64,000 bases of DNA, taken from Martelella sp. AD-3. Its GTDB lineage: Bacteria > Pseudomonadota > Alphaproteobacteria > Rhizobiales > Rhizobiaceae. Below are positions 35,102 to 54,069 of this stretch, piece after piece. The stretch is taken from contig NZ_CP014275.1 of assembly GCF_001578105.1 (NCBI RefSeq), positions 1,364,001 through 1,428,000 on the forward strand, in the 5' to 3' direction. A program made the translations under genes and the position numbers. The notes under the pieces were generated by a model. That model made no database searches. It saw nothing but the letters and a program-made list of their open reading frames with translations, and was not told where the DNA came from. Each line of letters starts with the position of its first letter. Position 1 is the first letter of the stretch.

Positions 35102-35303
35102 GCTCGCGTGCTCCGATCGCGTTTAGCTGACATTCGTCGACTCCGGATGCGCGGGCGTTTCCTGTCCTTTGCCGCCGTCTACGAAAATCGCAACGAATGT
35201 CGGCTGTGAGCCCATCTTGCATGAAGCTGCAATTGCAGCGATTGTCTTCTTCAAGAAATTCCTCGTGACTCAGATATGTATTGTTAAAAGGTGCCAAGTA
35301 CCA

Positions 35304-36263
35304 ATGGTTGAAACAGCCGCGACAGAGCATTCCGGCAAACTCGAGGTAAAAATTCCAGAGGAGACCCATACAGCCGGCTCGCCAAGCGTGGTTCGAGTTG
35401 TGGTGCACAATCCTTTTCCTGTTGATGTGGAAATTCTCGAGATCTTGGCGCCACAATCCTCACTTGTTCGCAGGGTAATGAATGGGAGCGGAAAACCGCC
35501 TCAGAAACAGTCTGAAGCAGATAGTTCAGCTTTTGTAGATGATACCCCTGTTAAAAGGACAAAGAAGGAGGGCTATATCGCCGAGAGTTTGATATCTGGC
35601 CTCCTTGTTTCATCTGTGAGCGTTGCTGGGTTGGGGGTAAGCGCCAGCTTCTTTGACAAACCTCGAAGGTTTATGCTGAGTGCAGAGCCCGGCTCGGACA
35701 CAAGAATTGAAAGGGACTTGTCAGACTTTGATGAGGTGTCAATCTCTGCATCAGAAAACGCAAAGCTTACCATCGCTTCCTCCACACCTGACGATTCCCC
35801 TGATGAGCCAGAAACGCATCTGATTCGACCACACTGCGACAAGGTCGCCTATTTCTCAATTATGTCAAATGGGTGGTTATTCTTTACTCCACAGCGAATA
35901 AATCTGAGTACAGAAATTCGATACATAATTGGCGGTGAAGAAAGGACCCAAGTTGTAACGTCATACTTCGATATGAAACCACCTTTGGCATCAATGATTA
36001 CAGGATCGATTTTTGGTGGAATTCTTGGCTCAATCGCGCGCGTATTACAAAACGGATCAGCATTTGAAGTTCAGTCGGCAATAGTTTCAGCTGGCGCATC
36101 TGTGATTATGAGCCTCATTGCGGCAATCGCTTTATCAAGAAAATCCGGCACACAAGGGTTCATTACTGTTGAGGACTTCTTCGGAGCATTCGTAATAGGA
36201 TCGTTGATTGGCTATGGTGGGTCAGAGTACTTTGACAGAGCGATCTTGCCTCAAGATGGCTGA
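35304..36263 (+). CDS. AT-rich orphan membrane protein, unknown function
   Basis: Predicted 319-aa protein. The ATG at 35304 is used because an AAGGTG site precedes it; the frame is open further upstream in poorer context. The N-terminal 60 residues look like a beta-rich domain (VVRVVVHNPFPVDVEILEIL). A hydrophobic segment is at about 95-115 (SGLLVSSVSVAGLGVSAS), then a soluble domain, then three membrane segments at the C-terminus (MITGSIFGGILGSIA, IVSAGASVIMSLIAAIALS, FFGAFVIGSLIGYGG). Its base composition is clearly lower in GC than its neighbours, which points to transfer. No family is recognised. It is flanked by direct repeats. Confidence 0.65.
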   Translation: MVETAATEHSGKLEVKIPEETHTAGSPSVVRVVVHNPFPVDVEILEILAPQSSLVRRVMNGSGKPPQKQSEADSSAFVDDTPVKRTKKEGYIAESLISGLLVSSVSVAGLGVSASFFDKPRRFMLSAEPGSDTRIERDLSDFDEVSISASENAKLTIASSTPDDSPDEPETHLIRPHCDKVAYFSIMSNGWLFFTPQRINLSTEIRYIIGGEERTQVVTSYFDMKPPLASMITGSIFGGILGSIARVLQNGSAFEVQSAIVSAGASVIMSLIAAIALSRKSGTQGFITVEDFFGAFVIGSLIGYGGSEYFDRAILPQDG

Positions 36264-36753: not shown

Positions 36754-36865
36754 TGTTGATTTGCGCTGAGAACTGACCCGGGATTGCGGGAAATTATCAC
36801 TGAGATTTGACCCATGTTTCAATCACCCCTCGCGAGGTTCAAGCGGGGGTTCTGGAGTGATCGAC

Positions 36866-38392
36866 ATGGCGTTATTGAGCGTAATTCGGCGCTGGCATTT
36901 TCGAGAGCATTTATCGATCCGGGAGATTTGTCGCAGGACCGGCCTATCCCGGAATACCGTCCGGAAATATCTGCGACTTGACGGCGTTGAACCGAAGTTC
37001 AAAGTCCCGGAGCGGCCGAGCAAGCTTGATCCGTATGCGGATCGGCTGTCGGCCTGGCTGAAGACGGAGTCAAAGAAGGGCCGCAAGCAAAAGCGCACCT
37101 TGAAGCAACTCCATGCCGACCTGATGAGCCTCGGCTATGAGGGTTCCTATTGCCGTGTTGCAGCCTTTGCCCGGGAATGGAAGGCGGACCGGCAAAGGGA
37201 ATTCCAGACGACAGGGCGCGGAACGTTCGTGCCTCTGGCATTTGAGCCGGGCGAAGCCTTCCAGTTCGACTGGTCTGAAGATTGGGCCATCATCGACAAT
37301 GAGCGCACCAAGCTGCAGGTAGCGCATACCAAGCTGAGTTATAGCCGCGCCTTTATCGTCCGGGCCTACCTCCTGCAGACGCACGAGATGCTGTTCGACG
37401 CCCACAATCATGCATTCCGCGTCTTCGGCGGCATTCCAGGACGTGGGATCTACGACAATATGCGCACGGCGATCGACAAGGTCGGCCGTGGCAAGGATCG
37501 CGACGTCAACGTCCGTTTCCTGGCGATGGCCAGCCACTATGTGTTTGAGCCCGAGTTCTGCAATCCTGCATCCGGCTGGGAGAAGGGACAGGTCGAGAAG
37601 AATGTGCAGGATGCACGCCATCGATTCTTCCAACCCATACCCCGCTTCCCGTCATTGGAAGCCCTGAACGATTGGCTTGAGCTTCGCTGCAAGGAGTTCT
37701 GGACCAAGACCCCGCATGGTCAGATGCGCGGCACCATCGCCGACATCTGGGCTGAGGAGGCTCAGGTATTGATGCCTCTCTCCCGGCCATTCGACGGGTT
37801 TGTCGAATATACGAAACGGGTCACACCGACCTGCCTCGTGCATCTGGAACGCAATCGCTACAGCGTCCCGGCATCCTTCGCCAACCGGCCGGTGAGCATG
37901 CGGGTTTACCCGGAACGTGTTGTGATCGCTGCAGAAGGTCAGATCGTTTGCGAGCATCGCCGCGTCATCGATCGATCCCATGACCGGCCGGGACAGACGA
38001 TTTACGACTGGCGGCATTATCTGGCGGTGGTGCAACGCAAGCCAGGTGCCCTGCGCAATGGCGCGCCATTCGCCGAACTCCCCGGTGCATTCCGATCCTT
38101 ACAGCAATACCTGCTCAAGAGGCCGGGTGGTGATCGTGAGATGGTCGATATTCTGGCGCTGGTCCTTCAGCACGATGAACAAGCGGTGCTCTCGGCCGTG
38201 GACCTGGCGCTGAAGTCAGGCGTTCCGACCAAGACGCATGTACTGAACCTGCTGCATCGCCTCGTCGACGGTAAACCCTGTACGCCCCTCACCATTGATG
38301 CACCACAAGCCCTGACGCTCACCAATGAGCCCAAGGCCAATGTTGAACGATACGACACCCTGAGAAAGACGGAGGCTCGCCATGCGCCATAA
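36866..38392 (+). CDS. istA: IS21 transposase IstA
   Basis: DDE transposase of 508 aa. The ATG at 36866 is placed correctly behind GGAG; a GTG three codons upstream is too close. The N-terminus has a helix-turn-helix ([20 protein letters not shown]). Catalytic residues lie in [20 protein letters not shown] and EKGQVEKNV. It overlaps istB by 11 bases. Apparently intact. Confidence 0.92.
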
Positions 38393-39182
38393 CCCCGCAA
38401 GCGGCGCGATCGTCATCATGCTGCGTCAATTGAAGATGCATGGCATGGCCCAAGCCGTCGGCGAGCTCACCGAACAAGGATCGCCGGCATTCGAAGCGGC
38501 AATCCCCGTCCTGTCACAACTCCTCAAGGCCGAAACCGCCGAGAGGGAAGTCCGTTCGACTGCCTATCAGCTCAAGACCGCACGCTTTCCAGCCTACCGT
38601 GATCTGAACGGCTTCGACTTTGCCAGCAGTGAGGTCAACGAAGCGCTTGTGCGCCAGCTCCATCGCTGCGAGTTCCTCGACGCCGCCAACAATATCGTTC
38701 TGGTCGGCGGTCCCGGTACAGGTAAAACGCACATTGCCACCGCGATCGGCGTTCAGGCCATTGAGCATCACCACAAGCGGGTTCGGTTCTTCTCAACAGT
38801 CGAACTGGTCAACGCGCTGGAACAGGAGAAGGCCCAAGGCCGCCCGGGTCAGATCGCCAATCGCCTGGCTCATTCCGATCTCGTCATTCTGGATGAACTG
38901 GGATATCTGCCGTTTAGTGCCTCAGGTGGCGCACTGCTCTTCCATTTGCTGAGCAAACTCTACGAGCACACCAGCGTAATCATCACCACCAACCTCAGCT
39001 TCAGTGAATGGGCCAGCGTGTTCGGCGATGCCAAGATGACCACCGCGCTGCTCGACCGCCTTACCCACCACTGCCATATCCTCGAGACCGGAAACGACAG
39101 CTTTCGCTTCAAGAACAGCTCAGCTCATGAAACCAAAACAACAAAGGAGAGACGGAGGAACTTGACCACGACAACCGAATAG
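38382..39182 (+). CDS. istB: IS21 helper ATPase IstB
   Basis: AAA+ protein of 266 aa with Walker [10 protein letters not shown], Walker [15 protein letters not shown] and the DnaA/DnaC-like downstream block [19 protein letters not shown]. It assembles at target DNA and stimulates IstA. Apparently intact. Confidence 0.93.
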
Positions 39183-39512: not shown

Positions 39513-39552
39513 TCTATTATGCATTTCCGGTCCTGGATGGAGTGCTTTGACC

Positions 39553-39886
39553 ATGTCAAATACCGCCTCCGACATAACCCGACTACGGGCCGCGCTTGCG
39601 GCTTCGCAGGCCCGCGCCGAGGCCGCCGAGAGCGAGCTGACGCAGGTCCGGGCGGTGGTCTCGACCGAGCAGGCCATGATCAAGCATCTGAAGCCGGAGA
39701 TCACCGAACTCCGACGGGAACACTATGGCCACAGCTCGGAGCGTCGCGTCCGGCTGATCGACCAGATGGAGCTGCAGCTCGAAGAACTCGAAGCCGCTGC
39801 GACCGAAGACGCGATCGACGCTCTGAACATGGCGAAGACTAAGGCCGTGGCCAGTTTTGGGCGCCGCCGTCCGGCGCGCAAGCCAT
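39553..39886 (+). pseudogene. IS66 TnpC-type transposase, N-terminal fragment
   Basis: Starting at the ATG at 39553 the product has the IS66 transposase coiled-coil start (ASQARAEAAESELTQVRAVV), then LRREHYGHSSERRVRLIDQM. It ends at about RRPARKPL, exactly where the sensor-kinase gene on the other strand terminates. More than 400 codons are missing. Confidence 0.78.
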
Positions 39887-39888
39887 TG

Positions 39889-42348
39889 CTATTCCGTTGT
39901 AACAAGCTGAAACCAGTTGTCGAGAAAGCGCCCACGTTTGATGGTGTCAAGAAAGACGAGCAACTCTGGCCCCAGAGTTATTCTTTGCTCGCTTCCAGGC
40001 GCAGCAGCACGGACAGTAAGCCCAAGAACGTCGTTGGCAAAGACCGTGCGTCCCTCCGCTGATAACATCGCTGCGGCGACGAAGGCAGCAAGCGGATGAG
40101 TGGACTTGTCTGGGACGAAGATTGTCCAGGGAACCGATAATAGGTAGTCCTGAGGTTCTATATAGTCGATCGGCGCTCCATCTACCTGTGCAGAGATGAC
40201 ACTGGAGAGGGGAATATTGTATCCGAGATCGATTTCGCCGGCGGCAAGCGCTGTGAGCAGCTCGGTGCCGGTTTCGAATATCCGTGCCTGTACGCTTCCG
40301 AAATCACGCGCCAGCCGCCAGGACAGAGCTGAGCGAAGCGAATCTTGTGTGGCGAGAAGGTAGGAGATGCTGTCGATCCCAACGTTGACGATACCAATTC
40401 GTTGGTAATAGGGGCTTGGTGACTGCTCCAGGGCGCGTGCGAGTGCCAGTCTTGTCGTCGGCAGGTCACCTGTTGTCATGGTATCCTCTTTGCGGATGAC
40501 GAAGACGGCGGGATCGGAATGCATTTCAAAGAGTTCGTTGCGCCAGTGCGGTGGGCGCCCGTCCGGTCCCGCCGAGGCTATAAAGTCGACCAGTGGCCTG
40601 ACGAAGCCATTGTTGCTCAGCGAGACGGCAATATCCGGCACAGGAAGAAGCACGATATCAGCGGAACCGAAGGTCGGTGTTCTGACCAAAGCGGCAATCT
40701 GCGGCGGGCGGAGCGAGGAGTAGTTGATGGCCAGTGAGGGAAAGCGCCCGGCAATCCAGTCCAGTAGGGGACGCATATTGTCGCGCGGCAATGTGCTTAC
40801 GATCGTGAGGTCCGGCTCCGGCTGCTGCGCATTCAGGTCTGCCGGAGGCAAGAGCGCTGCCAGGCTCAGGAACGCGAATGCCGGCAACTTGATCCAGCCC
40901 GCCCGAAACCAGGGCTTGCGGGGCGTCTTGTCTGCGCCGGAGGCATTTGGGATTGGAAGGCGGACCTCCACCCGCAATCCGCCGCCGTCAGCTTCGTCGA
41001 GTTCGATTGTTCCGTGCGCCGCGCTGATAACCTCACGGGCGATGGCGAGGCCGAGTCCTGAGCCGGGCCTGTCCATCCGGTCCCGCACATAGCGCTCGAA
41101 AACGGCTTCCCTGCGGTCGAGCGCGATACCGGGCCCTTTGTCGCAAACTGTGAGCACGGCCTCGCTGCTCTGTGTCGTGACCGTCACCCGTGTCGGGCCT
41201 GGTGCATGCAGAAAGGCATTTTCGATCAGGTTGCGGATCATTTCGATCATTCCGACCGGATCGGCATCGATGAGTACCTGTTGGTCCGGGCGCGAGAACT
41301 CAACCTCACGGAGACCTTCTGCGAACTCGCCATTGCTCCCGATGCGGTTCAGTGCTTCTTCGACATAGTCGGATAGGTCGCCGGTCTCCGCCTCCCTCAT
41401 CTTGAGTTTATGCAAAAGCGTTGCGTCAGTGAGCCATCGGTTTGCCAGAGTGCTGGCGGTGGCGGCGTTGCGATGAATCCTTGCGACCCTGTCGCGCATG
41501 ATCTCAGCATCAGTTTCGTCGAGCGCAACCTCCGCCTGCGCGCGCAGCGCTGCAAGTGGCGTGCGAAGCTGATGGGCGGCATCAGCCGTGACGCGCCTCA
41601 ACCCCTCCAGCGTCGAGGCGAGCTGGGCCATGAAATCATTGAGTGCGACGACGAGCGTTTCGATTTCCCTGGGGACGTCCCGTGAAATCGGGCTGAGGTC
41701 GGAGCGGGCTCGGTTGCGCAGGACCCTCGCCACCGAGCGTAGAGGCCGGAACGCAAGGCGGATGCCGCCCCACATAAGGAGAAAGGCGGCGACAGCGACG
41801 GCCGCCGCTGGAACGAGCGAGTCGACGATAAGATGGCTGGTCAGTGCGTTGCGTGATTCCCGCGTTTCGGCGACCAGCACGTCAATCCATCCCGCATCTC
41901 CGGTTGTCGCGTCGGTTCTGTAACGCGCTACTGCCGCGATGCGCACCGGCTCGCCGTCCATCGTTCCGTCCGAAAGCCTGAGGGAGGGGGTCTGCGGCGT
42001 CTCGATATCGAGGCCCAGAACCGGAGAGCCGGTGACGACCGACCCGTTCGGCGCCACGACCCGATAGAATATTCTGTTCATCTGGGTCGTTCCCAGGATG
42101 GCGAAGGCCGAATAGGGGATATCGACGATGACGTTGCCGTTCTCATAGGCGGCGGTATCAGCAATGGCCAGGGCCGCCGCTCCCAGCACGCGGTCGAAAG
42201 CTTCATCAGCGGCGCGGTAGGCATTGCTGTAGGCGGTGTTGTAGAGCAGGGCCCCGGCGAGAAGAAACACGAACCCGGCGCTTGCAATCACCGCTTTTTC
42301 GATCGAAAGGCGCGCCAGCCGCTGCCGGATTGAAAGGCGGTCGGTCAT
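39889..42348 (-). CDS. Histidine kinase fused to a C-terminal solute-binding domain
   Basis: Predicted 819-aa protein; the ATG at 42348 is chosen 34 bases after the regulator gene. Residues 1-470 form a TctE-like kinase: spans at about 18-37 and 178-198, a periplasmic sensor between, HAMP-like RPLRSVARVLRNRAR, His259 in DAAHQLRTPLAAL, N box NLIENAFLHAP, G boxes DKGPGIAL and GSGLGLA. After a short linker, residues about 486-507 form a third span or uncleaved signal (PAFAFLSLAALLPPADLNA). Residues 510-819 then resemble an FbpA/AfuA-type periplasmic binding protein (LTIVSTLPRDNMRPLLDWI). The frame is continuous, with no sign of a sequencing join. The IS66 remnant abuts its stop codon. Confidence 0.8.
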   Translation of the reverse strand: MTDRLSIRQRLARLSIEKAVIASAGFVFLLAGALLYNTAYSNAYRAADEAFDRVLGAAALAIADTAAYENGNVIVDIPYSAFAILGTTQMNRIFYRVVAPNGSVVTGSPVLGLDIETPQTPSLRLSDGTMDGEPVRIAAVARYRTDATTGDAGWIDVLVAETRESRNALTSHLIVDSLVPAAAVAVAAFLLMWGGIRLAFRPLRSVARVLRNRARSDLSPISRDVPREIETLVVALNDFMAQLASTLEGLRRVTADAAHQLRTPLAALRAQAEVALDETDAEIMRDRVARIHRNAATASTLANRWLTDATLLHKLKMREAETGDLSDYVEEALNRIGSNGEFAEGLREVEFSRPDQQVLIDADPVGMIEMIRNLIENAFLHAPGPTRVTVTTQSSEAVLTVCDKGPGIALDRREAVFERYVRDRMDRPGSGLGLAIAREVISAAHGTIELDEADGGGLRVEVRLPIPNASGADKTPRKPWFRAGWIKLPAFAFLSLAALLPPADLNAQQPEPDLTIVSTLPRDNMRPLLDWIAGRFPSLAINYSSLRPPQIAALVRTPTFGSADIVLLPVPDIAVSLSNNGFVRPLVDFIASAGPDGRPPHWRNELFEMHSDPAVFVIRKEDTMTTGDLPTTRLALARALEQSPSPYYQRIGIVNVGIDSISYLLATQDSLRSALSWRLARDFGSVQARIFETGTELLTALAAGEIDLGYNIPLSSVISAQVDGAPIDYIEPQDYLLSVPWTIFVPDKSTHPLAAFVAAAMLSAEGRTVFANDVLGLTVRAAAPGSEQRITLGPELLVFLDTIKRGRFLDNWFQLVTTE

Positions 42349-42382: not shown

Positions 42383-43060
42383 TTAACGCTGGCTGCTTGT
42401 TTCCCGCAAGATGTAGCCGACTCCGCGCTGCGTGATGATCTCGACCTGGGCGCCCTGCAGTTTTTTTCGCAGACGAGAGACCAGCAGTTCCACCGCATTG
42501 GGCGTGCCCGCGTCATCATGGCCGAAAAGCCTGACTACGACATGCTCCTTGTTGACCGGCGTGCCGGGCGCTTTGGCCAGCGCCTCGAGCATATCGTATT
42601 CGCGGCGGCCGAGCTCGAGCGGCGCGCCGGCAAGGCTGGCCGCCCGGTTGTTCATGTCCAGTCTGAGATCGCCAAAAACGATTTCGCCGGTCGTTATGCC
42701 GCTGCTGCGGCGCGCAAGCGCGCGCACCCGCGCCGTCACCTCGCTGAGATCGCAGGGCTTGACGATGTAATCGTCGGCGCCAAGATCGAGCAGTCCCACC
42801 TTGTCGGCGATCTGGTTGCGGGCTGTCATGACCAGAACCGGCGTCCTGCTTCCGCCGTGACGGATTGCCGAAAGAACTTCAAAACCGTCGCGTTTCGGAA
42901 GGTTGATGTCGAGGATGACGACATCAAAGCCGTCACTCATGGCATAGTCCTCGCCGCGCTCGCCATCGCCGACATGTTCGACATCGTGCCCCTCGCGGCG
43001 CAGCTTTGTCGCAATGGCGTCGGCAAGGTCTTCCGAGTCTTCAACTAATAGTATTCGCAT
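42383..43060 (-). CDS. OmpR-family response regulator (TctD-like)
   Basis: Regulator of 225 aa. The receiver begins MRILLVEDSEDLADAIATKL, the phospho-acceptor Asp is in DVVILDINLPKRDGF and the Lys in DDYIVKPCDL. The C-terminal winged helix (LELGRREYDMLEALAK, ends TQRGVGYIL) is of OmpR/TctD type. It is followed by its kinase and is divergent from the PhnD-like gene at 43166, so the 105-base gap may hold regulated promoters. Confidence 0.92.
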   Translation of the reverse strand: MRILLVEDSEDLADAIATKLRREGHDVEHVGDGERGEDYAMSDGFDVVILDINLPKRDGFEVLSAIRHGGSRTPVLVMTARNQIADKVGLLDLGADDYIVKPCDLSEVTARVRALARRSSGITTGEIVFGDLRLDMNNRAASLAGAPLELGRREYDMLEALAKAPGTPVNKEHVVVRLFGHDDAGTPNAVELLVSRLRKKLQGAQVEIITQRGVGYILRETSSQR

Positions 43061-43165: not shown

Positions 43166-44128
43166 TTGACGAACGCAGGAAGAACAGGCTTGCTGGCTTG
43201 CGCCATTGCCGTTTGCGCGTCGGCCGCCATGGCGGGCGCCGATGCCGAGCAATGCGCGAGGCCCTATCTGGCGGCGCCATACAGCGACTGCAACAATGAT
43301 CTCGTCGCCGACCTTCCCGCCGACCCGGCGCTGTGGAGGAACCCGCCGACGCTGGTTTGGGCCTATGCGCCGATCGAGGATCCGGCGGTTTACGCCGAGC
43401 TCTTCAAGCCTTTCACCAACCACCTGAGCCAGTGCCTCGAACGACAGATAGTCTACTATCCCGTCTTGACCGGTGCCGCCGAAATCGAGGCTCTGAAATC
43501 GGGGCGGCTGCATTTCGCCGGGTTCGCGACGGGATCGACGGTCACGGCCGTTCGCGAGGCCGGCGCCGTGCCTTTCGCGACCAAGGGAATAGGCGACGAG
43601 GTCCGGGGCTATCGTCTGATCTCCGTGGTGCGGAAGGGGTCTCCCTATCACAAGCTCAGTGATCTTGTTGGCGGGCGGGTGGCGCATTCCAGTCCGTTGT
43701 CCAATTCCGGAAACCTCGCGCCCAGGGCCCTGTTCCCCGAACAGGGGCTGCGACCCGACATCGACTATATACCGATCATGTCCGGCGGACATGATAAGTC
43801 CCTGCTTGGACTGGTCGCCGGCGATTACGACATGGCCGCCGTCGCGTCGGATGTCTACGAGCGCATGGCGGACAGGGGCATGATCGATCCCGAGAGCGTG
43901 CGGATCATTTATGAAAGCCCGCTCTTTCCGACATCCTCGTTTGTCTATGCGCATGATCTCGATCCGGAGCTGTCATCCGCCCTGGAACGCTGCTTTTTCG
44001 GCTTTCTGTTCCCGCCGGAGATGCAGGCGGAATTCAATGGCGACACCAATTTCATTCCGCTTTCCTTCAAGGACAGCTGGGCGACGGTGCGCGACGTCAT
44101 GGTCAGGGCAAACGCCATGGCGGAATAG
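43166..44128 (+). CDS. PhnD-like periplasmic phosphate/phosphonate-type binding protein
   Basis: Predicted 320-aa protein with a TTG start after GGGAGGAG. A signal peptide covers about residues 1-27 (GLLACAIAVCASAAMAGADA). The mature part matches the PhnD family: LTGAAEIEALKSGRLHFAGF, then VVRKGSPYHKLSDLVGGRVA and SGGHDKSLLGLVAGDYDMA. It lies between a two-component system and an iron/phosphonate-type ABC transporter that has its own binding protein at 47209, so it may be a second receptor or a ligand-presenting sensor protein. Confidence 0.82.
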   Translation: MTNAGRTGLLACAIAVCASAAMAGADAEQCARPYLAAPYSDCNNDLVADLPADPALWRNPPTLVWAYAPIEDPAVYAELFKPFTNHLSQCLERQIVYYPVLTGAAEIEALKSGRLHFAGFATGSTVTAVREAGAVPFATKGIGDEVRGYRLISVVRKGSPYHKLSDLVGGRVAHSSPLSNSGNLAPRALFPEQGLRPDIDYIPIMSGGHDKSLLGLVAGDYDMAAVASDVYERMADRGMIDPESVRIIYESPLFPTSSFVYAHDLDPELSSALERCFFGFLFPPEMQAEFNGDTNFIPLSFKDSWATVRDVMVRANAMAE

Positions 44129-44197: not shown

Positions 44198-46045
44198 ATG
44201 GGATCTTTCACGGGATCGCCACCAGGGACGACTGTGCCCGCAGTCAGGGGCAAAAGCCGGATCCATCGCTGGCTTTACTACAGCCGCATTGCGGCGAACG
44301 AGCCGGCGGGACTGCTCGCCATCGTTCTCCTTGTACTCTTCTTCTACCTGATTGCCGCGCCCGTCCTTCTGTTGCTGGCAGATGCATTCCGGGTTCAGTA
44401 CGCCGAGCAGGCGCGCACCGGAAAAGAGGTGGGGGCGCTGACAACCTATTACGTCCAGCGGGTCATGCTTTCACCCATCGCCCGGGATGTTTTCTGGACG
44501 CCGCTTTTCAATACGGCGACCATCGCGGCGGGTGCGATCGTCGTCGCGCTTGTCGTCGGCACACCGCTCGGCTGGCTCCTGAGCCGCACCGATCTTCCGG
44601 GCAAACGCTGGTTTTCGACCGCGCTCATCGTTCCCTACATGCTGCCGTCATGGACCTTTGCCCTGGCATGGACGACCCTTTTCAAGAACCGGACGACCGG
44701 CGGCGCCACCAGCTGGGCGGAGGCGGTTGGCTTCGAGCCGCCGGACTGGCTCGCCTACGGCTTCCTGCCGATTACGCTGATCCTGGCGTTGCACTACACG
44801 CCCTTCGTGATCCTGCTTTTCGGAAACGCCCTGCGCAAGTTCGATTCCCAGCTTGAGGATTCAGCCCGCATTCTCGGCGCCGGCCGATGGGACGTGGCGC
44901 GTCGCATAATATTGCCTTTGATGCTGCCGGCGCTGGTTTCCGCTTCAACACTGATCTTCGCCAAATGCCTCGGAGATTTCGGCGTGGCCTATATCGTCGG
45001 GGTTCCCGTCGGCTATGATGTTCTTGCCACCTCGCTGTTCCGCGCGATCAGCACCAGCCAGACCGGCGTCGCTGCCGTCCTGGCCGGAACGATCGTTCTG
45101 CTCGGCGCCGTCTCCATTCTCATCGACATGCGCCTTTTGAAGGAAGCGCGCCGTTTCGAGACGATCGGTTCGAAAAGCGCGATGAACAGGGTGACGCCGT
45201 TGCGAAAGTGGCGGCTTCCGGCGACCGGCTTCGCTCTTCTCGTTTTCACCGTCAGTGCAGCCATTCCGCTTCTGGCATTGGGGCTGACCACGGTGATGCT
45301 GCGTCCCGGCGTCTTCGCGCTGGACAACTTCACCCTGGATTTCTGGCTGGGCCGCAACCTCGAGACGACGGCACTGCATCAGGGTATTCTTCTCACGCCG
45401 GAATTCTGGGCCGCGACATGGAACACGGTGACCATCGTCGGCGGAGCGGCGATCAGCTCGGGAATTCTCGGACTGCTGGTGGGTTTCGCGGTCGCGCGAT
45501 CGCCGGTCCCCTTCGTCGGCGGACTGCTGCGCCAGATCACGTTCATGCCCTATCTGGTTCCCGGCATTGCCTTTGCCGCGGCCTATCTGGTCATGTTCGC
45601 CTTTCCACGCGGCCCGCTGCCGGCGCTCTACGGGACGTCGATCATTCTGTTTCTGGCGCTCGTCGCCGACCAGATGCCCTTTGCATCCCGCGCGGGCATC
45701 ACCGCCATGATGCAGCTTGGCAGGGATCCCGAGGACGCGGCGCGCATCGTCGGCGCCGGGTGGTTCCGGCGGTTGCGCTCGGTCGTCATTCCGATCCAGC
45801 GCGGCTCGCTGGTCTCGGGCATCCTTCTGCCGTTCATATCCGGTCTGAAGGGATTGAGCCTCGTCGTCGTCCTCGCCGTTCCCGGCACCGACGTCCTCAC
45901 CACCTATGCCATCCGTCTCGTCGACTACGGATACAGCCAGGCGGCCAACGCGGTCGTGCTGATGATCTGCGCGATCGCCTTTTTCGGAACGCTGGGCGTG
46001 CAAAAGCTCACCAGAAGTTCGCTCTCTGACGGGTTGGGGAAGTAA
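44198..46045 (+). CDS. Iron/phosphonate-type ABC permease, double-domain
   Basis: Permease of 615 aa with about 12 spans made of two permease halves, as in FbpB and related Fe3+/2-aminoethylphosphonate systems. EAA-type loops are LEDSARILGAGRWDVARRII in the first half and PEDAARIVGAGWFRRLRSVV in the second. It starts 69 bases after the PhnD-like gene and ends 2 bases before the ATPase gene. The substrate cannot be fixed from the sequence. Confidence 0.88.
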   Translation: MGSFTGSPPGTTVPAVRGKSRIHRWLYYSRIAANEPAGLLAIVLLVLFFYLIAAPVLLLLADAFRVQYAEQARTGKEVGALTTYYVQRVMLSPIARDVFWTPLFNTATIAAGAIVVALVVGTPLGWLLSRTDLPGKRWFSTALIVPYMLPSWTFALAWTTLFKNRTTGGATSWAEAVGFEPPDWLAYGFLPITLILALHYTPFVILLFGNALRKFDSQLEDSARILGAGRWDVARRIILPLMLPALVSASTLIFAKCLGDFGVAYIVGVPVGYDVLATSLFRAISTSQTGVAAVLAGTIVLLGAVSILIDMRLLKEARRFETIGSKSAMNRVTPLRKWRLPATGFALLVFTVSAAIPLLALGLTTVMLRPGVFALDNFTLDFWLGRNLETTALHQGILLTPEFWAATWNTVTIVGGAAISSGILGLLVGFAVARSPVPFVGGLLRQITFMPYLVPGIAFAAAYLVMFAFPRGPLPALYGTSIILFLALVADQMPFASRAGITAMMQLGRDPEDAARIVGAGWFRRLRSVVIPIQRGSLVSGILLPFISGLKGLSLVVVLAVPGTDVLTTYAIRLVDYGYSQAANAVVLMICAIAFFGTLGVQKLTRSSLSDGLGK

Positions 46046-46047
46046 TC

Positions 46048-47151
46048 ATGTCGAATATCAATCTCGTAAACATTTCGAAAGCCTATGCGAAGAATGCGCC
46101 GAAGGCCGTCGAGAACCTGGACATCGAAATCGCGGATGGTGAGTTCCTCTGCCTTCTCGGCCCTTCGGGCTGCGGCAAGACGACGACATTGCGCATGCTT
46201 GCCGGTTTGGAGCACCCAACGGATGGCAAGATCCTGATCGATGGAAAACCGATCGTTTCGGTCGATGACGGGATCTATACGCCTCCTGAAAAGAGGGGGC
46301 TTGGCCTGGTCTTCCAGAGTTACGCGCTTTGGCCGCACCTTTCCGTCGAAGAGAATGTCGCATTCGGGCTGAGGCTTCGGAAAGTGCCGCAGAGCGAACG
46401 CGACAAGACCGTTGCCGAAGTGATGGAGACGCTTTCGATCGCCCAGTATCGCGATCGCTATCCGAGCCAGCTTTCCGGAGGGCAACAGCAGCGTGTCGCA
46501 CTGGCCCGGACGCTTGCGACCCGCCCCGGCATCATCCTGCTCGATGAGCCGCTGTCCAACCTGGACGCCAAGCTGCGGCTGGAAATGCGCGCGGAACTGA
46601 AGCGAATCCACCGCGAAATGGGGGCGACGATCATTTTCGTGACCCACGACCAGTGGGAAGCCATGACGCTCGCCACGACAATCGCGGTGATGAGCGATGG
46701 CACGCTCCAGCAGCTGGGCAATCCGACGGATATCTATGAAAGACCGGCGAACCGGTTTGTCGCGGGCTTCGTGGGAAGCATGCCGATCAACTTCATCGAT
46801 ATCTCCCATGGCGACACCGGCGTTCTGGCCACCTGGACGCGGACGATGCTGGCTGATCATGCAGAGCCGGCGAAAGTCGCGACCGTCGGCATCCGGCCCG
46901 AGGCGATCCGTGTTCTTCCCGAGGGAGAAAACGCGGGCCCGGACTGCGTCGTTGCCGCAGGTGCACACGTGAACGACGTGTTGCCGACCGGCGGAAGCTG
47001 GATCATCGAGCTGCTTGTCGAAGGCCGCAAGGTCTTCGCCATCACAGAGAGCACGCCGTCGCAACGTGCCGGCGATGCCGTCAATCTCGCTGTCGAGCGG
47101 GGCCACCTGCATCTTTTCGACAGCGAGGACAACCGGATCGCAACGGCCTGA
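46048..47151 (+). CDS. ABC transporter ATPase (FbpC/PotA type)
   Basis: ATPase of 367 aa with Walker A GPSGCGKTTTLRML, signature LSGGQQQRVALARTLA, Walker [16 protein letters not shown] and H-loop VTHDQWEAMTLA, followed by a TOBE tail with GIRPEAIRVL. It is closely spaced behind the double permease. Confidence 0.92.
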   Translation: MSNINLVNISKAYAKNAPKAVENLDIEIADGEFLCLLGPSGCGKTTTLRMLAGLEHPTDGKILIDGKPIVSVDDGIYTPPEKRGLGLVFQSYALWPHLSVEENVAFGLRLRKVPQSERDKTVAEVMETLSIAQYRDRYPSQLSGGQQQRVALARTLATRPGIILLDEPLSNLDAKLRLEMRAELKRIHREMGATIIFVTHDQWEAMTLATTIAVMSDGTLQQLGNPTDIYERPANRFVAGFVGSMPINFIDISHGDTGVLATWTRTMLADHAEPAKVATVGIRPEAIRVLPEGENAGPDCVVAAGAHVNDVLPTGGSWIIELLVEGRKVFAITESTPSQRAGDAVNLAVERGHLHLFDSEDNRIATA

Positions 47152-47208: not shown

Positions 47209-48342
47209 ATGAAAACCATGATCCTGGCAACCACGGCTCTTGCGCTTGGCGGGGTGTTGCTGTCGTCCACCGTCAACGCGCAGGACCTCGGCATATCCGA
47301 TTCGGACTACTCGCTTGACGCCCTCATCGAAGCGGCGCGTCAGGAAGAACCGATCACGGTCATCGACGCCACCGGCAAGATTGTGACGATGGCCGAGAAC
47401 TTCACGGAGAAATACGGCGTTCAGGCGACGGGCGTCAAAATGTCCGCTTCCGAGCAGGAACAGGTCATCACCCGCGAGGCGCAGTCCAACAATGTGCGCA
47501 CGGATGTCTTCAACATGAGCAACCTGCCGTCGGTCACCTCGCAGATCCTGCCGCAGGGCTTCGGCGTCAGCTGGTTCCCACCGGATCTTGCCGATGAGGT
47601 TCCTGAAAATTACCGCAACCCGGCGATCACCAGCCTCAATCCGTGGGTCTGGGCCTATAATGACGCGGTCTATACCGACGGTTGCCCGATCGACAACATG
47701 TGGGCGCTGACGGAACCGGACTGGAAGGGGCGCGTGGCCATTCCCGATCCGCTCCTGCGCAATGAAACCATGTTCTGGTTCAACCAGCTTGCCACCAACT
47801 CTGACGACAAAATGGCCGAGGCCTATGAAGCCTATTTCGGTGAGCCGCTTGATACCGATGAAGCGAGCGCCACCGCGGAATGGGTGAAACGCCTCGCCGC
47901 CAATCAGCCGGTCGTCACCAAGGGCGATTCCGATGTCGGTCCGATTATCGGCGCTCCGGGACAGGAAAAGCCGTTCATGGGCTTGCTGAGCGCGGCCATC
48001 TTCCGCCATGCCGACCGTGATGGCTACAGCATGGGGATTTGCGAGGGGCTGAAGCCATTTATCGGTCAGTTGACGCCGCGCGTCGCTGTCATTGCGGCTG
48101 GAACGGACAGCCCGAACGCCGCCAAGTTGTTCGTGCACTATATGATGACTGGCGAGGGCATGGCACCGCAGCTCTCCGACGGCAAGATCTCGACCAACGA
48201 AAATGCGGTCATGCCCGAAGACGAGCATTCCGGCGTGTTCGATGTCCGCGACCAGCTGCATGTCACCGACTCCGCGACCACAGCGGATGATTTTGCCAAG
48301 CTTCAGGACTGGCAGGACTTCTGGATCGTGAACAATCGCTAA
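47209..48342 (+). CDS. Periplasmic binding protein of the iron/phosphonate-type transporter
   Basis: Predicted 377-aa protein with CTGGAGGAG upstream and a signal peptide (MILATTALALGGVLLSSTVN, cut after NAQ or VNA). The mature protein belongs to the extracellular solute-binding family of FbpA/PhnS-type importers (EPITVIDATGKIVTMAENFT, then WKGRVAIPDP). No obvious iron-binding tyrosine pair is identified, so an organic ligand is as likely as iron. A weak hairpin at about 48358-48391 follows. Confidence 0.85.
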   Translation: MKTMILATTALALGGVLLSSTVNAQDLGISDSDYSLDALIEAARQEEPITVIDATGKIVTMAENFTEKYGVQATGVKMSASEQEQVITREAQSNNVRTDVFNMSNLPSVTSQILPQGFGVSWFPPDLADEVPENYRNPAITSLNPWVWAYNDAVYTDGCPIDNMWALTEPDWKGRVAIPDPLLRNETMFWFNQLATNSDDKMAEAYEAYFGEPLDTDEASATAEWVKRLAANQPVVTKGDSDVGPIIGAPGQEKPFMGLLSAAIFRHADRDGYSMGICEGLKPFIGQLTPRVAVIAAGTDSPNAAKLFVHYMMTGEGMAPQLSDGKISTNENAVMPEDEHSGVFDVRDQLHVTDSATTADDFAKLQDWQDFWIVNNR

Positions 48343-48567: not shown

Positions 48568-49560
48568 CTAGTCTCGGACGGTCTTCCGCCACACCATACG
48601 GGAGGACAGCATGATCGAACGCGGCTCATCATGCTCCGGCTCGGAAAGGTAGCTGACCGCAGCCTTGGCAAAATCATCAACCGGCTGACTGAAGGTCGTC
48701 AGATTGTAGCTGTCCCAAGTGGCCTGCTCGATATCATCGAAGCCGATGATGGAAACCTCTTCGGGCACACGTAATTTCAGACGCTGACGGGCAGCATCGA
48801 GCACGCCGCACGCGATCAAGTCGGTCGAGCAGAAAATGCCATCCGGACGTTCCGGCCGGGTCAGCAGACGCATACCGACATCGAGCCCCGTCTGATAGGA
48901 GGTCATGCCGCTTGCATCTTCGATGAGTGCCAAGCCTGCATCAGCCGCAGCGGCGGCAAAGCCCTTGCGTCGGTCCTCGAGGCTCGGGGTGCCCGCCAGA
49001 GATGAGGCAAATGCCATCCGCCTGCAACCCGCGGCGAACAAGGCGGCAAACGCTTGGCGCCCGGCAGCAGCGTCGTCCAGCCTTAGCTGAAGCGTGCCGG
49101 CGCGCTCTTCATCGCGATTGATCAGGACCAGGCGCATGCCATTGCGAAGGCAAATCTCCGCCAGCGATGTGTCCGGCATGCCGGAGAGAATGATCGCCGC
49201 TTCCGTGCGATAGGAAATGGCCTGCCGCAAGGCCTGGGCGACGCTTTCGTCCGACCGGTCCGTATTGATCAGCATGCCGACCTTGCCAGCAGCCTGCAAC
49301 TGGCTCGAAAGGGCGGCAAGCAGGGTGGACCGATAGGGCGTATTAATCTCGGCCGCAATGAGAGCGACGATCCCCGTTTTCGATGTCAGAAGACCGCGCG
49401 CCAGATTGTTCACCTGGTACCCGAGTTTCTCGGCCGCCTCATAGACCTTTGCGCGGGTTTCGGAGGAAACGGAAGCGCCTGGCGTGAAGGCTCTAGAAAC
49501 CGCCGTGCGAGAGACCCCGGCCAGCTCTGCTACATCTTTCGCACTTACCTGAGTTCTCAT
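48568..49560 (-). CDS. LacI-family transcriptional regulator
   Basis: Predicted 330-aa repressor. The ATG at 49560 is favoured over a TTG six codons upstream. The N-terminal helix-turn-helix with hinge is VSAKDVAELAGVSRTAVSRA to VNNLARGLLTSKTG. The ligand domain ends with PEEVSIIGFDDIEQATW and LTTFSQP, as in sugar-responsive members. It is divergent from the AfuABC-like operon, and the gap carries matching palindromes, so it most likely represses that operon in the absence of its substrate. Confidence 0.92.
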   Translation of the reverse strand: MRTQVSAKDVAELAGVSRTAVSRAFTPGASVSSETRAKVYEAAEKLGYQVNNLARGLLTSKTGIVALIAAEINTPYRSTLLAALSSQLQAAGKVGMLINTDRSDESVAQALRQAISYRTEAAIILSGMPDTSLAEICLRNGMRLVLINRDEERAGTLQLRLDDAAAGRQAFAALFAAGCRRMAFASSLAGTPSLEDRRKGFAAAAADAGLALIEDASGMTSYQTGLDVGMRLLTRPERPDGIFCSTDLIACGVLDAARQRLKLRVPEEVSIIGFDDIEQATWDSYNLTTFSQPVDDFAKAAVSYLSEPEHDEPRSIMLSSRMVWRKTVRD

Positions 49561-49572
49561 GATGCTGTCTTC

Positions 49573-49615
49573 TTGCAAACCTGTGCATTGGCGTAATTCA
49601 TAGAATTAACGCCAA
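49573..49615. promoter_or_regulatory. Operator-like sites next to the lacI-type gene
   Basis: TTGCAAACCTGTGCAT (49573-49588) carries the half-site CTGTGCAT of the perfect palindrome at 49660. Directly after it, TTGGCGTAATTC (49588-49599) and GAATTAACGCCAA (49603-49615) form a second inverted repeat with one extra base in the right arm. Confidence 0.5.
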
Positions 49616-49659: not shown

Positions 49660-49675
49660 ATGCACAGCTGTGCAT
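49660..49675. promoter_or_regulatory. Perfect 16-bp operator palindrome
   Basis: ATGCACAGCTGTGCAT is a perfect palindrome 36 bases before the binding-protein gene. A TTGACA box lies 25 bases upstream (49630-49635). It is the best candidate for the LacI-type operator. Confidence 0.65.
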
Positions 49676-49711
49676 CATGCCAGCACCCGGAAACGGGAAT
49701 GGGAGGAGAAC

Positions 49712-50734
49712 ATGAATACATTGAAGTGCGCCCTTGCGGGCGCAGCAATAATGTTGCCCGCCAGCGCCATGGCGGACGAGTTGAACCTGATCTGCTCGGC
49801 CGATGTCGTCATCTGTGAACGGCTTGTCACTGAGTTCGAGAGCAGCCATCCGGACACCGATGTGAACATGGTGAGAATGTCATCCGGTGAGGCCTATGCG
49901 AAAATCAGGGCCGAAGCGCGTAATCCGCAAACCGATCTCTGGTGGGGAGGGACGGGAGACCCTCATCTTCAGGCGGGACATGACGGGTTGACCGCCGAAT
50001 ACAAGTCGCCAATGCTGGCCGAGTTGCAGGACTGGGCGCAAGGACAGGCAGAAGTCTCTGATTTCCGTACGGTGGGAGTCTATTCCGGTGCTTTGGGCTG
50101 GGGATACAATAAAGAGCTGTTTGCGGAAAAGGGCATCGCCGCTCCGGAGTGCTGGGCCGACCTGCTGGACCCTGCCTTGAAGGGCGAGATCCAGATCGCC
50201 GACCCGAACTCGTCCGGCACGGCCTATACGACGCTTGCAACGCTCGTCCAGCTGATGGGTGAGGACGAAGCTTTCGATTTTCTGAAAAAAATGCACGCGA
50301 ACGTCTCGCAGTACACAAAATCCGGCAGTGCTCCCGTGAAAGCGGCGGCACGCGGTGAAACAGGACTGGGTATTGTCTTTCAGCATGACGCTGTTGCTCA
50401 GGCAGTGTCCGGTTTCCCGATCGGAGTCGTCGCCCCCTGCGAGGGGACGGGATATGAGATCGGCTCCATGTCCATGATCGAGGGTGCGCAGAATCCGGAA
50501 GCAGCCAGGACCTTCTATGACTGGGTGCTGACGGCAGAGGTGCAGAACATGATGCCGGAAGCAGGTTCATTCCAGATTCCGTCAAATGCCAGCGCGACGC
50601 CGCCCGAAGAGGCGCCGGACCTGTCGACGATCAAGCTGATCGACTATGACTTTGCCGAGTATGGCAGCGCGGAAAGGCGCAAGGCCCTGCTGGCGCGGTG
50701 GGACGATGAAATCGGGTCCCTGCCGCTCCAATAA
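49712..50734 (+). CDS. AfuA-like periplasmic binding protein
   Basis: Predicted 340-aa protein. The ATG at 49712 follows GGGAGGAG and starts a signal peptide (LKCALAGAAIMLPASAMA, cut before DELN). The mature part has the AfuA/FbpA layout (FESSHPDTDVNMVRMSSGEA, DLWWGGTGDPH, then GLGIVFQHDAVAQA). Actinobacillus AfuA, first called iron-binding, binds hexose phosphates. A phosphatase gene in this operon makes a phosphorylated ligand plausible here too, but the binding residues were not compared. Confidence 0.8.
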   Translation: MNTLKCALAGAAIMLPASAMADELNLICSADVVICERLVTEFESSHPDTDVNMVRMSSGEAYAKIRAEARNPQTDLWWGGTGDPHLQAGHDGLTAEYKSPMLAELQDWAQGQAEVSDFRTVGVYSGALGWGYNKELFAEKGIAAPECWADLLDPALKGEIQIADPNSSGTAYTTLATLVQLMGEDEAFDFLKKMHANVSQYTKSGSAPVKAAARGETGLGIVFQHDAVAQAVSGFPIGVVAPCEGTGYEIGSMSMIEGAQNPEAARTFYDWVLTAEVQNMMPEAGSFQIPSNASATPPEEAPDLSTIKLIDYDFAEYGSAERRKALLARWDDEIGSLPLQ

Positions 50735-50800
50735 CGTGACCTGACGCAGGCAGGCTGGAGCCTGCCTGCGTTCGCGCCCCTGAACTCATCGGACAGTGTC

Positions 50801-53008
50801 ATGACATCCAGAGACAACCGCAGGCTCGATATGATCCTGGCGGCGGCGATTGTCGCTTTCATCGCCCTGCCTTGGTATCGAGTCCGCTCCGGATTTTTCA
50901 GCTTCGAATGGCTGAGTGATTTCGTCGTTTCAGACAGCCTGTGGCCGGGCATTGCCCAGCTCCTTACGGGCCGCTGGCAGCTCCTGCCGGTTTTTTTGAT
51001 GCTTCTTGCAGCGCTCTATCTGCGTGTCACACGACACCCGGGGGATCGGGGACGCGCTCTGATCAATATCGGCGTTGCGGGACTTCTTTGGATGTTGGTC
51101 GAGGGCCTTTCGATCGGCATGCGTGGCTGGAACTGGAGCCTTCTGGAGGCCACCTTCGGGGAAATATCCGGACAGCCAGCCTTTGGGGCAGGTGCCGTGG
51201 TCATTGGCACCGTCTTTGCGCTGATGATTGCTTTCGGAGCCGCCGAGCGTGGCGCATTGAAGGGCGATGCCTTCGTACTCGCCTGCATTACGCTGCTGGT
51301 GCTGCTTGTCGCGGTCTTTGTCTTTTACCCGCTGGTATCCATGTTCACCGGCGCCTTTCAGGAATTCGATGGCTCATTCACGACGGAGGGCGTGCGCAGG
51401 AACATCATTGACCCAAAGATCTGGTCACTTGCCTGTCTTGCAGGCGGCAATTGCGGCGTTGCCTGGCGCACCTTCTTTCTGGCCGTCTGTACAGCGACAG
51501 GGACGACGCTGCTGGGGCTGGTCTTCGCGCTCGTGGCGACCAGAACAGGGTTTCGCTTCAAGAAATCGCTGCGGCTGCTGACGGTGTTGCCGATTATCAC
51601 GCCGCCCTTCGTCGTCGGCCTTGCGCTGACCATGCTGCTGGGTCGCTCCGGCACATTGACCAATGTGATCGAAGCCGCGACGGGTCTGGAGCTGGGGCGC
51701 TGGCTCTATGGGCTGACAGGAATCTGGATTGCCCAGATGCTCAGCTTCACGCCGATTTCCTTCCTTGTTCTGATCGGCGTGGTCGATGGGATCAGCCCAT
51801 CCATGGAAGAGGCAAGCCAGACGCTGCGCTCGGACCGCTGGCGCACTTTTCGCAAGGTTACGCTGCCGCTGATGGCGCCCGGGCTGGCCAATGCGTTCCT
51901 GATCGGTTTCATCGAATCCATGGCTGACTTCGGCAACCCTTTGGTCCTCGGCGGCTCGGGTGGCGTTCTGTCGACAGAGATATTCTTTGCTGTCGTCGGT
52001 GCGCAGAATGACCCTGCGCGCGCGGCAGTACTCGCCACAGTCCTGCTGGTGTTCACGCTTTCGGCCTTCCTTGCTCAGCGCCTGTGGCTTTCCGGCAAGA
52101 ATTACTCGACCGTGACGGGGAAAGGGGATGGCGGACGGCATATACAGCTGCCGCATCGCGTAGCCATCCCGGTGATAACCGTAGCTGTCATCTGGGCCGT
52201 GTTCACCATCACGGTCTATGCGATGATCCTCTTCGGCGGCTTCGTTAGCATCTGGGGGCTTGATCACTCGCTGACGCTTGCGCACTACACGAGGGCGTTC
52301 GGTATCAGCTGGGAAAACGGCATCCGCTGGACAGGCGTTGCCTGGGACAGCTTCTGGACCACAATGGAAATCGCTCTGATCGCCGCGCCGTTGACCGCCG
52401 CCGTCGGACTTCTGACGGCCTGGCTGATTGTTCGGCAGAGATTTCCGGGGCGCTCTGTCTTCGAATTTGCTCTGATGATGAGCTTTGCCATTCCCGGCAC
52501 AGTCATCGGCATCAGCTACATCATGGCATTCAACCTTCCGCCTCTGCAGATGACCGGTACGGCGGTAATCCTGATTGCCTGCTTTGTCTTCCGTAACATG
52601 CCGGTCGGCGTGCGGGGAGGGGTGGCGGCCATGTCACAGCTGGACGGATCGCTTGACGAGGCTTCTCTGACACTCGGGGCAAGCTCGGGCCGCACGATGC
52701 GCAAGGTCATCCTGCCGCTCATGCGCCCGGCCATCCTGGCAGCATTGGTCTACAGCTTCGTTCGCGCAATCACCTCGATTTCAGCTGTGATCTTTTTGGT
52801 CAGCGCGAAATACAACATGGCGACCGCCTACATCGTTGGCCTGGTCGAGAACGGGGAATACGGCATTGCCATCGCCTATTCCTCGGTTCTGATCCTGGTG
52901 ATGATCACGGTCATTGGCGGCTTTCAGCTTCTGGTTGGCGAACGTCGCATTCGCCGAAGAGAAGAGAAGGACGCCGCAGCCCCCATCAAGAAGGAAGCAC
53001 TCGGATGA
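50801..53008 (+). CDS. AfuB-like ABC permease, double-domain
   Basis: Permease of 735 aa, longer than usual because of about 150 extra N-terminal residues with three or four spans (VFLMLLAALYLRV, IGVAGLLWMLVEGLSIGM). Two permease halves follow, with EAA-type loops MEEASQTLRSDRWRTFRKVT and DEASLTLGASSGRTMRKVI. It overlaps the ATPase gene by 4 bases. Confidence 0.88.
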   Translation: MTSRDNRRLDMILAAAIVAFIALPWYRVRSGFFSFEWLSDFVVSDSLWPGIAQLLTGRWQLLPVFLMLLAALYLRVTRHPGDRGRALINIGVAGLLWMLVEGLSIGMRGWNWSLLEATFGEISGQPAFGAGAVVIGTVFALMIAFGAAERGALKGDAFVLACITLLVLLVAVFVFYPLVSMFTGAFQEFDGSFTTEGVRRNIIDPKIWSLACLAGGNCGVAWRTFFLAVCTATGTTLLGLVFALVATRTGFRFKKSLRLLTVLPIITPPFVVGLALTMLLGRSGTLTNVIEAATGLELGRWLYGLTGIWIAQMLSFTPISFLVLIGVVDGISPSMEEASQTLRSDRWRTFRKVTLPLMAPGLANAFLIGFIESMADFGNPLVLGGSGGVLSTEIFFAVVGAQNDPARAAVLATVLLVFTLSAFLAQRLWLSGKNYSTVTGKGDGGRHIQLPHRVAIPVITVAVIWAVFTITVYAMILFGGFVSIWGLDHSLTLAHYTRAFGISWENGIRWTGVAWDSFWTTMEIALIAAPLTAAVGLLTAWLIVRQRFPGRSVFEFALMMSFAIPGTVIGISYIMAFNLPPLQMTGTAVILIACFVFRNMPVGVRGGVAAMSQLDGSLDEASLTLGASSGRTMRKVILPLMRPAILAALVYSFVRAITSISAVIFLVSAKYNMATAYIVGLVENGEYGIAIAYSSVLILVMITVIGGFQLLVGERRIRRREEKDAAAPIKKEALG

Positions 53009-54069
53009 CACATACAAAAGGTGCCGTGGCGTTTCGCAATGTGCGGAAGAGCTTCGGCCATTTCACCGCCATTCCGGACCTCTCGCTCGACATTGAGCCA
53101 GGCCAGCTTGTCACGCTGCTCGGACCCTCTGGATGCGGCAAGACGACAACGCTCCGCATGCTGGCGGGTCTGGAAAGCCCTACCGAAGGCCAGATCATGA
53201 TCGGCGGCGAGGATGTCACCCGCCTGCCTGCCGACAGGCGCGACGTATCGATGGTGTTCCAGAGCTATGCGCTTTTTCCGCATATGCGCGTTGGCCAGAA
53301 TGTAGCCTACGGCCTTGAAGCGAGCGGTATCAAATCAGGTGAGGCGCGCAAGCGCGCCGAGGAGGCGCTCGAAGTCGTTGGGCTCTCCGGTCTGTCAGGG
53401 CGCCTGCCGGCAGAGCTTTCCGGCGGCCAGCAGCAGCGCGTCGCCGTGGCGCGCGCACTCGTTCTAGAGCCACAGGTCCTGCTGCTCGACGAACCGCTTT
53501 CGAATCTCGATGCCCGACTGCGTCGCCAGGTGCGCACGGATATCCGCACGCTGCAGCAGCGCCTTCGTTTCACGGCTGTTTACGTCACGCATGATCAGGA
53601 AGAAGCGCTCGCTGTCTCCGATACCATCGTTGTCATGAAGGATGGGAAGGTCGCTCAGATTGGGTCACCGCGCGAGCTTTATGAAGCGCCAGCTTCCGAG
53701 TTCATTGCCGACTTCATCGGAGAGGCCAATGTTGTGGATGGGCATATTCGGTCCATCGAAGGCGATATTGCGAAGGTCGAAGTGGGCGGGGTAACCATCG
53801 CGCTGCCGTCGCGCGGCACTAAACCGGGCCCGGCACGGCTGTCGCTCCATGCCAATGCCATGAAGGTCAGATCCGAAGGGCAGGGGGTTCCGGGCACAAT
53901 CGCCTCCTCGGCTTATCTCGGTGATCACGTCGAGTACGAGATCGATGGTCCGCTTGGACGCATATTCGTGGTCGATGACGAAAGCGAAGTGCCGTTGCCG
54001 GCCGGTTCAAACGTCCGACTTGAAGTTCGCCCGAGGGGCGTCGCGCTTATTCCGCAGGAGAATGCATGA
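53005..54069 (+). CDS. AfuC-like ABC transporter ATPase
   Basis: ATPase of 354 aa with Walker A GPSGCGKTTTLRML, signature LSGGQQQRVAVARAL, Walker [16 protein letters not shown] and H-loop VTHDQEEALAVSD, then a TOBE tail. Its start overlaps the permease stop and its stop overlaps the phosphatase start, so the four genes form one tightly coupled operon. Confidence 0.92.
   Translation: MTHTKGAVAFRNVRKSFGHFTAIPDLSLDIEPGQLVTLLGPSGCGKTTTLRMLAGLESPTEGQIMIGGEDVTRLPADRRDVSMVFQSYALFPHMRVGQNVAYGLEASGIKSGEARKRAEEALEVVGLSGLSGRLPAELSGGQQQRVAVARALVLEPQVLLLDEPLSNLDARLRRQVRTDIRTLQQRLRFTAVYVTHDQEEALAVSDTIVVMKDGKVAQIGSPRELYEAPASEFIADFIGEANVVDGHIRSIEGDIAKVEVGGVTIALPSRGTKPGPARLSLHANAMKVRSEGQGVPGTIASSAYLGDHVEYEIDGPLGRIFVVDDESEVPLPAGSNVRLEVRPRGVALIPQENA

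Follow-up and report, generated by a model that had tools for sequence, protein, structure and literature searches.

A TctE-type histidine kinase and a solute-binding protein in one reading frame of Martelella sp. AD-3, joined by a signal-peptide-like segment

The 64,000-nucleotide stretch of Martelella sp. AD-3 analysed here (the window; contig NZ_CP014275.1, positions 1,364,001 to 1,428,000) encodes a histidine kinase whose reading frame runs on into a solute-binding protein (SBP). Is the SBP held by a third membrane segment as a receptor built into the kinase, as the original prediction proposed, or are the two proteins made together and then separated?

Kinase and binding protein in one frame

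39889..42348, minus strand: whole fused gene, kinase, putative internal signal peptide, and SBP (one frame, 819 aa)
41833..42255, minus strand: 2CSK_N sensor domain, aa 32-172 (Pfam)
41422..41598, minus strand: HisKA domain with phospho-acceptor H259, aa 251-309 (Pfam)
40948..41262, minus strand: HATPase_c domain, aa 363-467 (Pfam)
40828..40929, minus strand: internal signal-peptide-like segment, aa 474-507 (hydrophobicity, length, position conservation)
39889..40827, minus strand: SBP domain, aa 508-819, and stop (3c9h match, AlphaFold model, MctA fold)
42383..43060, minus strand: cognate response regulator, TctD-like (Response_reg and Trans_reg_C), directly upstream (Pfam, NCBIfam)
43166..44128, plus strand: PhnD-type SBP, divergent, first gene of an ABC cassette (profile match, neighbourhood comparison)
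44198..46045, plus strand: ABC permease, two permease domains; PhnU2 is the best NCBIfam model but scores below cut-off
46048..47151, plus strand: ABC ATPase
47209..48342, plus strand: second SBP of the cassette (SBP_bac_11)

The mechanical open reading frame of the fused gene extends to 42519, across the response-regulator gene. The 2CSK_N, HisKA, and HATPase_c domains all scored above the Pfam cut-offs, and H259, N377, and the G-box glycines were invariant in the 33 fused rows (of 37 fused) that were aligned. In the C-terminal part, an SBP_bac_11 match at aa 650-771 lay below the Pfam cut-off, and a search against solved structures matched aa 505-816 to the Agrobacterium SBP 3c9h (E 5e-22). 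Modelled on its own with AlphaFold, the SBP part (312 aa) had a mean pLDDT of 92.8; its closest fold was that of the metal-citrate-binding protein MctA (7f6r; TM 0.88, E 4e-25), followed by 3c9h (TM 0.84). The full-chain model of the 819-aa protein had a mean pLDDT of 82.8 and contained long helices flanking 2CSK_N at aa 16-65 and 164-212, both with pLDDT values of approximately 90 over most of their length.

The kinase is of the TctE type and catalytically complete by its residues, and the SBP is complete. The open frame, the Pfam domains, the 3c9h match, and the pLDDT of the SBP part bear out the original prediction of a complete TctE-like kinase continuing into an SBP within 819 aa. The missed stop or frameshift that might have explained the join was absent from the frame, and a second genome (L041, 51% identical) had the same one-frame form, with its C-terminus ending at the same place.

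Beyond the 3′ end of the gene lie IS21 istA/istB genes (36857-39182, plus strand) and an IS66 transposase fragment (LZ_Tnp_IS66; approximately 39547-39885, plus strand) that ends near the fused gene's stop codon; this boundary was placed by eye, and the protein end still matches its relatives. Further out, a 364-aa open reading frame with a TTG start (35169-36263, plus strand) had no Pfam match at E 0.01.

Relatives with one gene and with two

Whole-protein searches (E ≤ 1e-60, the own genome counted in each sample) matched 30 of 247 family genomes, 52 of 397 in the order sample, and 11 of 387 in the class sample. The best-scoring matches together with seven plasmid records made up 75 loci, of which 37 were one-frame forms (window included), 30 had adjacent genes, and 8 lacked a same-strand SBP frame within a locus that often ended 1.5 kb past the kinase match; this set gives no frequencies, since long matches score higher and one-frame forms were thereby favoured. 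With 36 other one-frame forms found, the domain order recurs elsewhere and is not unique to the window. One-gene forms of 799-836 aa on NZ_CP058351, NZ_CP032343, and NZ_CP045374 are named only 'extracellular solute-binding protein', and such database names hide the kinase. Among the matches listed from the open-licence literature, no title or abstract described such a fusion.

When 299 further genomes of the phylum were searched with a relative of the fused protein (L053), 8 matched; three genomes from outside the class had their kinase and SBP matches in separate frames, and this search gave no one-frame match besides the window's own. A search of genome contigs for similar loci returned only distant kinases (3 loci).

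The kinase tree and the SBP tree each required 5 state changes, of which well-supported branches force 4 and 3, respectively. A constraint keeping all 37 fused rows together was rejected for the kinase tree (AU p 4e-6, by a quick method with the constrained group named after the tree was seen). Both trees recovered a clade of nine containing the window and a fused clade of 27, and they differed in where the nine attach. The window and L041 were sisters (SH-aLRT 97 and 95) within the clade of nine, whose other seven members are two-gene forms; both are long branches in the SBP tree, for which the program warns of a false join. On these trees, there has been more than one change between the one-gene and the two-gene form; the trees are unrooted, and each change may have been a fusion or a fission.

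The joining segment and the fate of the precursor

The segment at aa 474-507 has a K/R-rich start followed by a short hydrophobic core, and the proposed cut, placed by eye, falls after LNA (aa 505-507) and before QQPEPD. The median KD19 of the fused junctions was 1.86 (n=37) versus 1.92 for the N-termini of two-gene SBPs (n=30; p=0.46), whereas the kinase helices TM1 and TM2 had medians of 2.56 and 2.52 (n=75 each; p≤6e-14 against the fused junctions). The hydrophobic run was 14 in fused junctions and in two-gene SBPs versus 19 in TM1 and 20 in TM2. An [AVSTGLI]xA site followed the core in 37/37 fused junctions, 28/30 two-gene SBPs, 58/75 TM1, and 50/75 TM2; with shuffled linker residues, such a site was expected in 33.4 of the 37 (P of all, 0.015), and its mere presence in alanine-rich linkers is weak evidence. 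The window junction had a KD19 of 1.52, lower than all 75 TM1 and all 75 TM2. Since the window's own TM1 also has a hydrophobic run of only 14 and carries an [AVSTGLI]xA site, the contrast for this protein alone rests on KD19 and on its relatives. The −3 residue of its proposed site is L, not A. Net charge before the core had a median of +3 in both fused junctions and TM1 and gave no separation.

Position conservation was examined in the 27-row fused clade by aligning the linker from the last LP of the kinase to the YPA motif. The −1 alanine column was A in 26 of 27 rows (pairwise identity 0.93), whereas the columns on either side had identities of 0.13 and 0.25. The linker otherwise drifts: identities lay mostly within 0.1-0.4, apart from one column at 0.48 and two core columns at 0.65 and 0.66. 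Counting back from the YPA motif without an alignment, offset −5 was A in 23 of 27 rows (0.72), and the remaining 29 offsets reached 0.33 at most.

Two other approaches were less decisive. In the full-chain AlphaFold model, aa 470-509 had a pLDDT below 50 and no helix, which agrees with a signal peptide but proves nothing. A weight-matrix site scorer trained on two-gene SBP sites ranked fused junctions somewhat above the membrane helices (AUC 0.66 for TM1, 0.74 for TM2), but they scored lower than the held-out signal peptides of two-gene SBPs (AUC 0.25). The scorer put the window's site elsewhere than LNA, with a score that was reached by 20/75 TM1 and 17/75 TM2; overall, it separated the groups poorly and placed many sites at positions judged not credible. 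In length and hydrophobicity, the joining segment resembles the signal peptides of two-gene SBPs and not the kinases' own membrane helices, and it carries a putative −3/−1 site.

Lipobox-like motifs were present in 3/30 two-gene SBP segments and 2/37 fused segments, and membrane attachment may therefore be tolerated in some relatives. In L071 and L017, a lipobox-like motif lies within the internal segment of the fused protein and, if real, would be an internal lipoprotein signal.

The start codons at the join also differed between the forms. In the 30 codons preceding the core, 1/37 fused versus 23/30 two-gene forms had an ATG accompanied by a ribosome-site-like motif, and 11/37 versus 26/30 had any ATG, leaving 26/37 fused forms without one. 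The window has a single in-frame TTG in this range, without a ribosome-site motif, and its segment at aa 474-507 contains neither an ATG nor such a motif. The SBP's own start thus appears, from these counts, to have decayed in fused genes until nearly gone, and a cut precursor would be expected to lose this start while retaining the cleavage site. In the two-gene forms, the nearest ATG or GTG overlapped the kinase end by 4 nt in 19/30 and by 1 nt in 6/30; with the genes so nearly contiguous, a small indel could join them. Two relatives (L065 and L066) have kinase and SBP in the same frame with one TGA between them; their SBP N-termini carry lipobox-like motifs, and they are possibly a half-way form of the fusion.

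We consider it probable that the precursor is cut by signal peptidase I into a kinase and a free SBP, and place our confidence no higher in view of the window's own TM1 and the site scorer, which both weigh against cleavage. A TctDE-type kinase and its cognate SBP, joined in frame, would be made as a single precursor. What was once the signal peptide at the SBP's N-terminus, now inside the chain, would restart export after the cytoplasmic catalytic domain, and signal peptidase I would probably cut after LNA. The products, equal in amount, would be a kinase that stays in the membrane with a short stub at its C-terminus and an SBP free in the periplasm. The 2CSK_N sensor domain may then bind the loaded SBP, the TctD-like regulator would be phosphorylated from H259, and this regulator would in turn activate the divergent ABC cassette. 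On balance, it also seems likely that Alphaproteobacteria merged kinase and SBP genes more than once, with the internal signal peptide still being cut to yield 1:1 products at the same membrane site.

A rather unlikely alternative, though one to be taken seriously, is that the segment stays as an uncut signal anchor and the SBP, hanging from the kinase C-terminus, sits next to the sensor loop in the periplasm at a locally high concentration. By sequence, the product is a single polypeptide; a short segment can also serve as an uncut anchor, and the charge of +3 before the core fits an inside-to-outside crossing. The lipobox-like motifs in both forms suggest that membrane attachment may be compatible, and the site scorer gave cleavage no preference. 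However, the joining segment is shorter and weaker than these kinases' helices, the fused clade keeps the cleavage-site alanine both with an alignment (26/27) and without one (23/27), and AlphaFold builds the other two long helices yet gives no confident helix at 470-509. The third membrane segment of the original prediction, taken as a stable helix, is thus disfavoured by a KD19 like that of signal peptides and by the low pLDDT, and tethering through it by the match to signal peptides and by a signal-peptidase alanine kept in a drifting linker. What stands of the 'built-in receptor' is a kinase with its own SBP in one frame; the SBP is probably made together with the kinase and then cut free.

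The remaining explanations concern the join itself. Two products could arise by an internal translation start or recoding there, as the start overlaps of 4 nt and 1 nt in two-gene relatives and the single TGA in L065 and L066 might suggest, but with one TTG lacking a ribosome-site motif in the window and no ATG in 26 of the 37 fused genes, we regard this as highly improbable. A sequencing error or a decaying pseudogene beside insertion sequences would fit the IS21 genes and IS66 fragment abutting the 3′ end and the long terminal branch of L004 in the SBP tree; the same form in L041, the intact catalytic residues, a C-terminus that ends with those of the relatives, and the well-folded model speak against it, and its probability is very small indeed. 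Sequencing error, pseudogene, and internal start were each judged unlikely on this evidence.

Neighbourhood, ligand and known systems

The best NCBIfam model of the regulator was TctD, with 190 bits against an equivalog cut-off of 337. Three Tct queries had no match in the whole window at E 1e-5, and the system does not lie beside tctCBA. Instead, the PhnD-type SBP, permease, ATPase, and second SBP were divergent to the regulator in 8/8 clade relatives (55-76% identity), one of which (L090) also had Tct genes at the far end of the locus; in other branches, Tct transporter genes were in the same locus in 17/19 loci examined. The divergent cassette is probably controlled by the kinase/regulator system. 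Beyond it lie a LacI-type regulator (48568-49578), a second ABC cassette of the PhnS2 type that comprises an SBP, a 735-aa permease, and an ATPase and is accompanied by a HisN/inositol-phosphatase-like gene (49670-54872, plus strand), and, close to this cassette, an IS256-family transposase (54960-56156, minus strand).

To compare binding sites, residues were taken from the titles of MctA mutant entries, with the numbering shifted by 2, which agrees with the Y221A chain, in an SBP alignment of 63 of 67 rows (9 of the window's clade and 54 others). Matches to D28, S164, Y221, and S79 numbered 53/54, 52/54, 54/54, and 51/54 in the other rows versus 0/9, 0/9, 1/9, and 3/9 in the window's clade. 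The T199 position was S or T in 50/54 and 4/9 rows, respectively, and the S26 position was poorly conserved in both groups. Because the citrate-site residues of MctA are mostly lost and a PhnD-type cassette replaces the Tct genes, both ligand and partner have probably changed in the window's clade; judging by these residues, citrate-like compounds may be sensed by the main branch and something else by the window's branch. Phosphonate is only a lead: in the two genomes checked, annotated phosphonate catabolism genes were near the system in Shinella (L080) and not within 7 kb in Ensifer (L079).

In Bradyrhizobium, a single reading frame encodes the FbcH cytochrome b/c1 precursor, which is divided into two proteins at an internal signal peptide; it serves a respiratory complex and not signalling, unlike the kinase-SBP fusion. 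BvgS/EvgS-type kinases have a venus-flytrap binding-protein fold as a covalent part of the kinase; there, the domains are N-terminal, periplasmic, and stay attached. MctA and Agrobacterium 3c9h, the closest folds to the fused SBP, were deposited as ABC transporter SBPs, and the window's clade lacks most of the residues named in the MctA mutant entries.

The kinship with kinases informed by a separate SBP, part of the original prediction, also agrees with published systems. In PMC5812351, signalling from SBP to kinase is reported for BctC/BctE; in TctDE and BctDE with BctC (citrate, tripartite tricarboxylate transporters), as would be the case here, a periplasmic SBP informs a two-component system, and the kinase of the fused system is of that type, with a TctD-like regulator beside it. 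BctC, however, is a separate gene and a TctC homologue, whereas the fused SBP belongs to the MctA/3c9h fold group and lies in the kinase's own frame. Such signalling is likewise proposed for AioX/AioS in arsenite sensing, where the signalling SBP is encoded with kinase and regulator (AioX-AioS-AioR; PMC5908839); those are separate proteins, and AioX is PhnD-like. As a caution, PMC11113362 describes two kinases encoded near SBP genes for which SBP binding was not seen.

If the fused protein is cut, it would be a bacterial signalling precursor that fixes the ratio of a kinase to its binding partner and delivers both together; if uncut, it would be a kinase that keeps its receptor tethered to itself. 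In both cases, the existence of one-gene and two-gene forms offers a natural experiment on how SBPs and kinases communicate.
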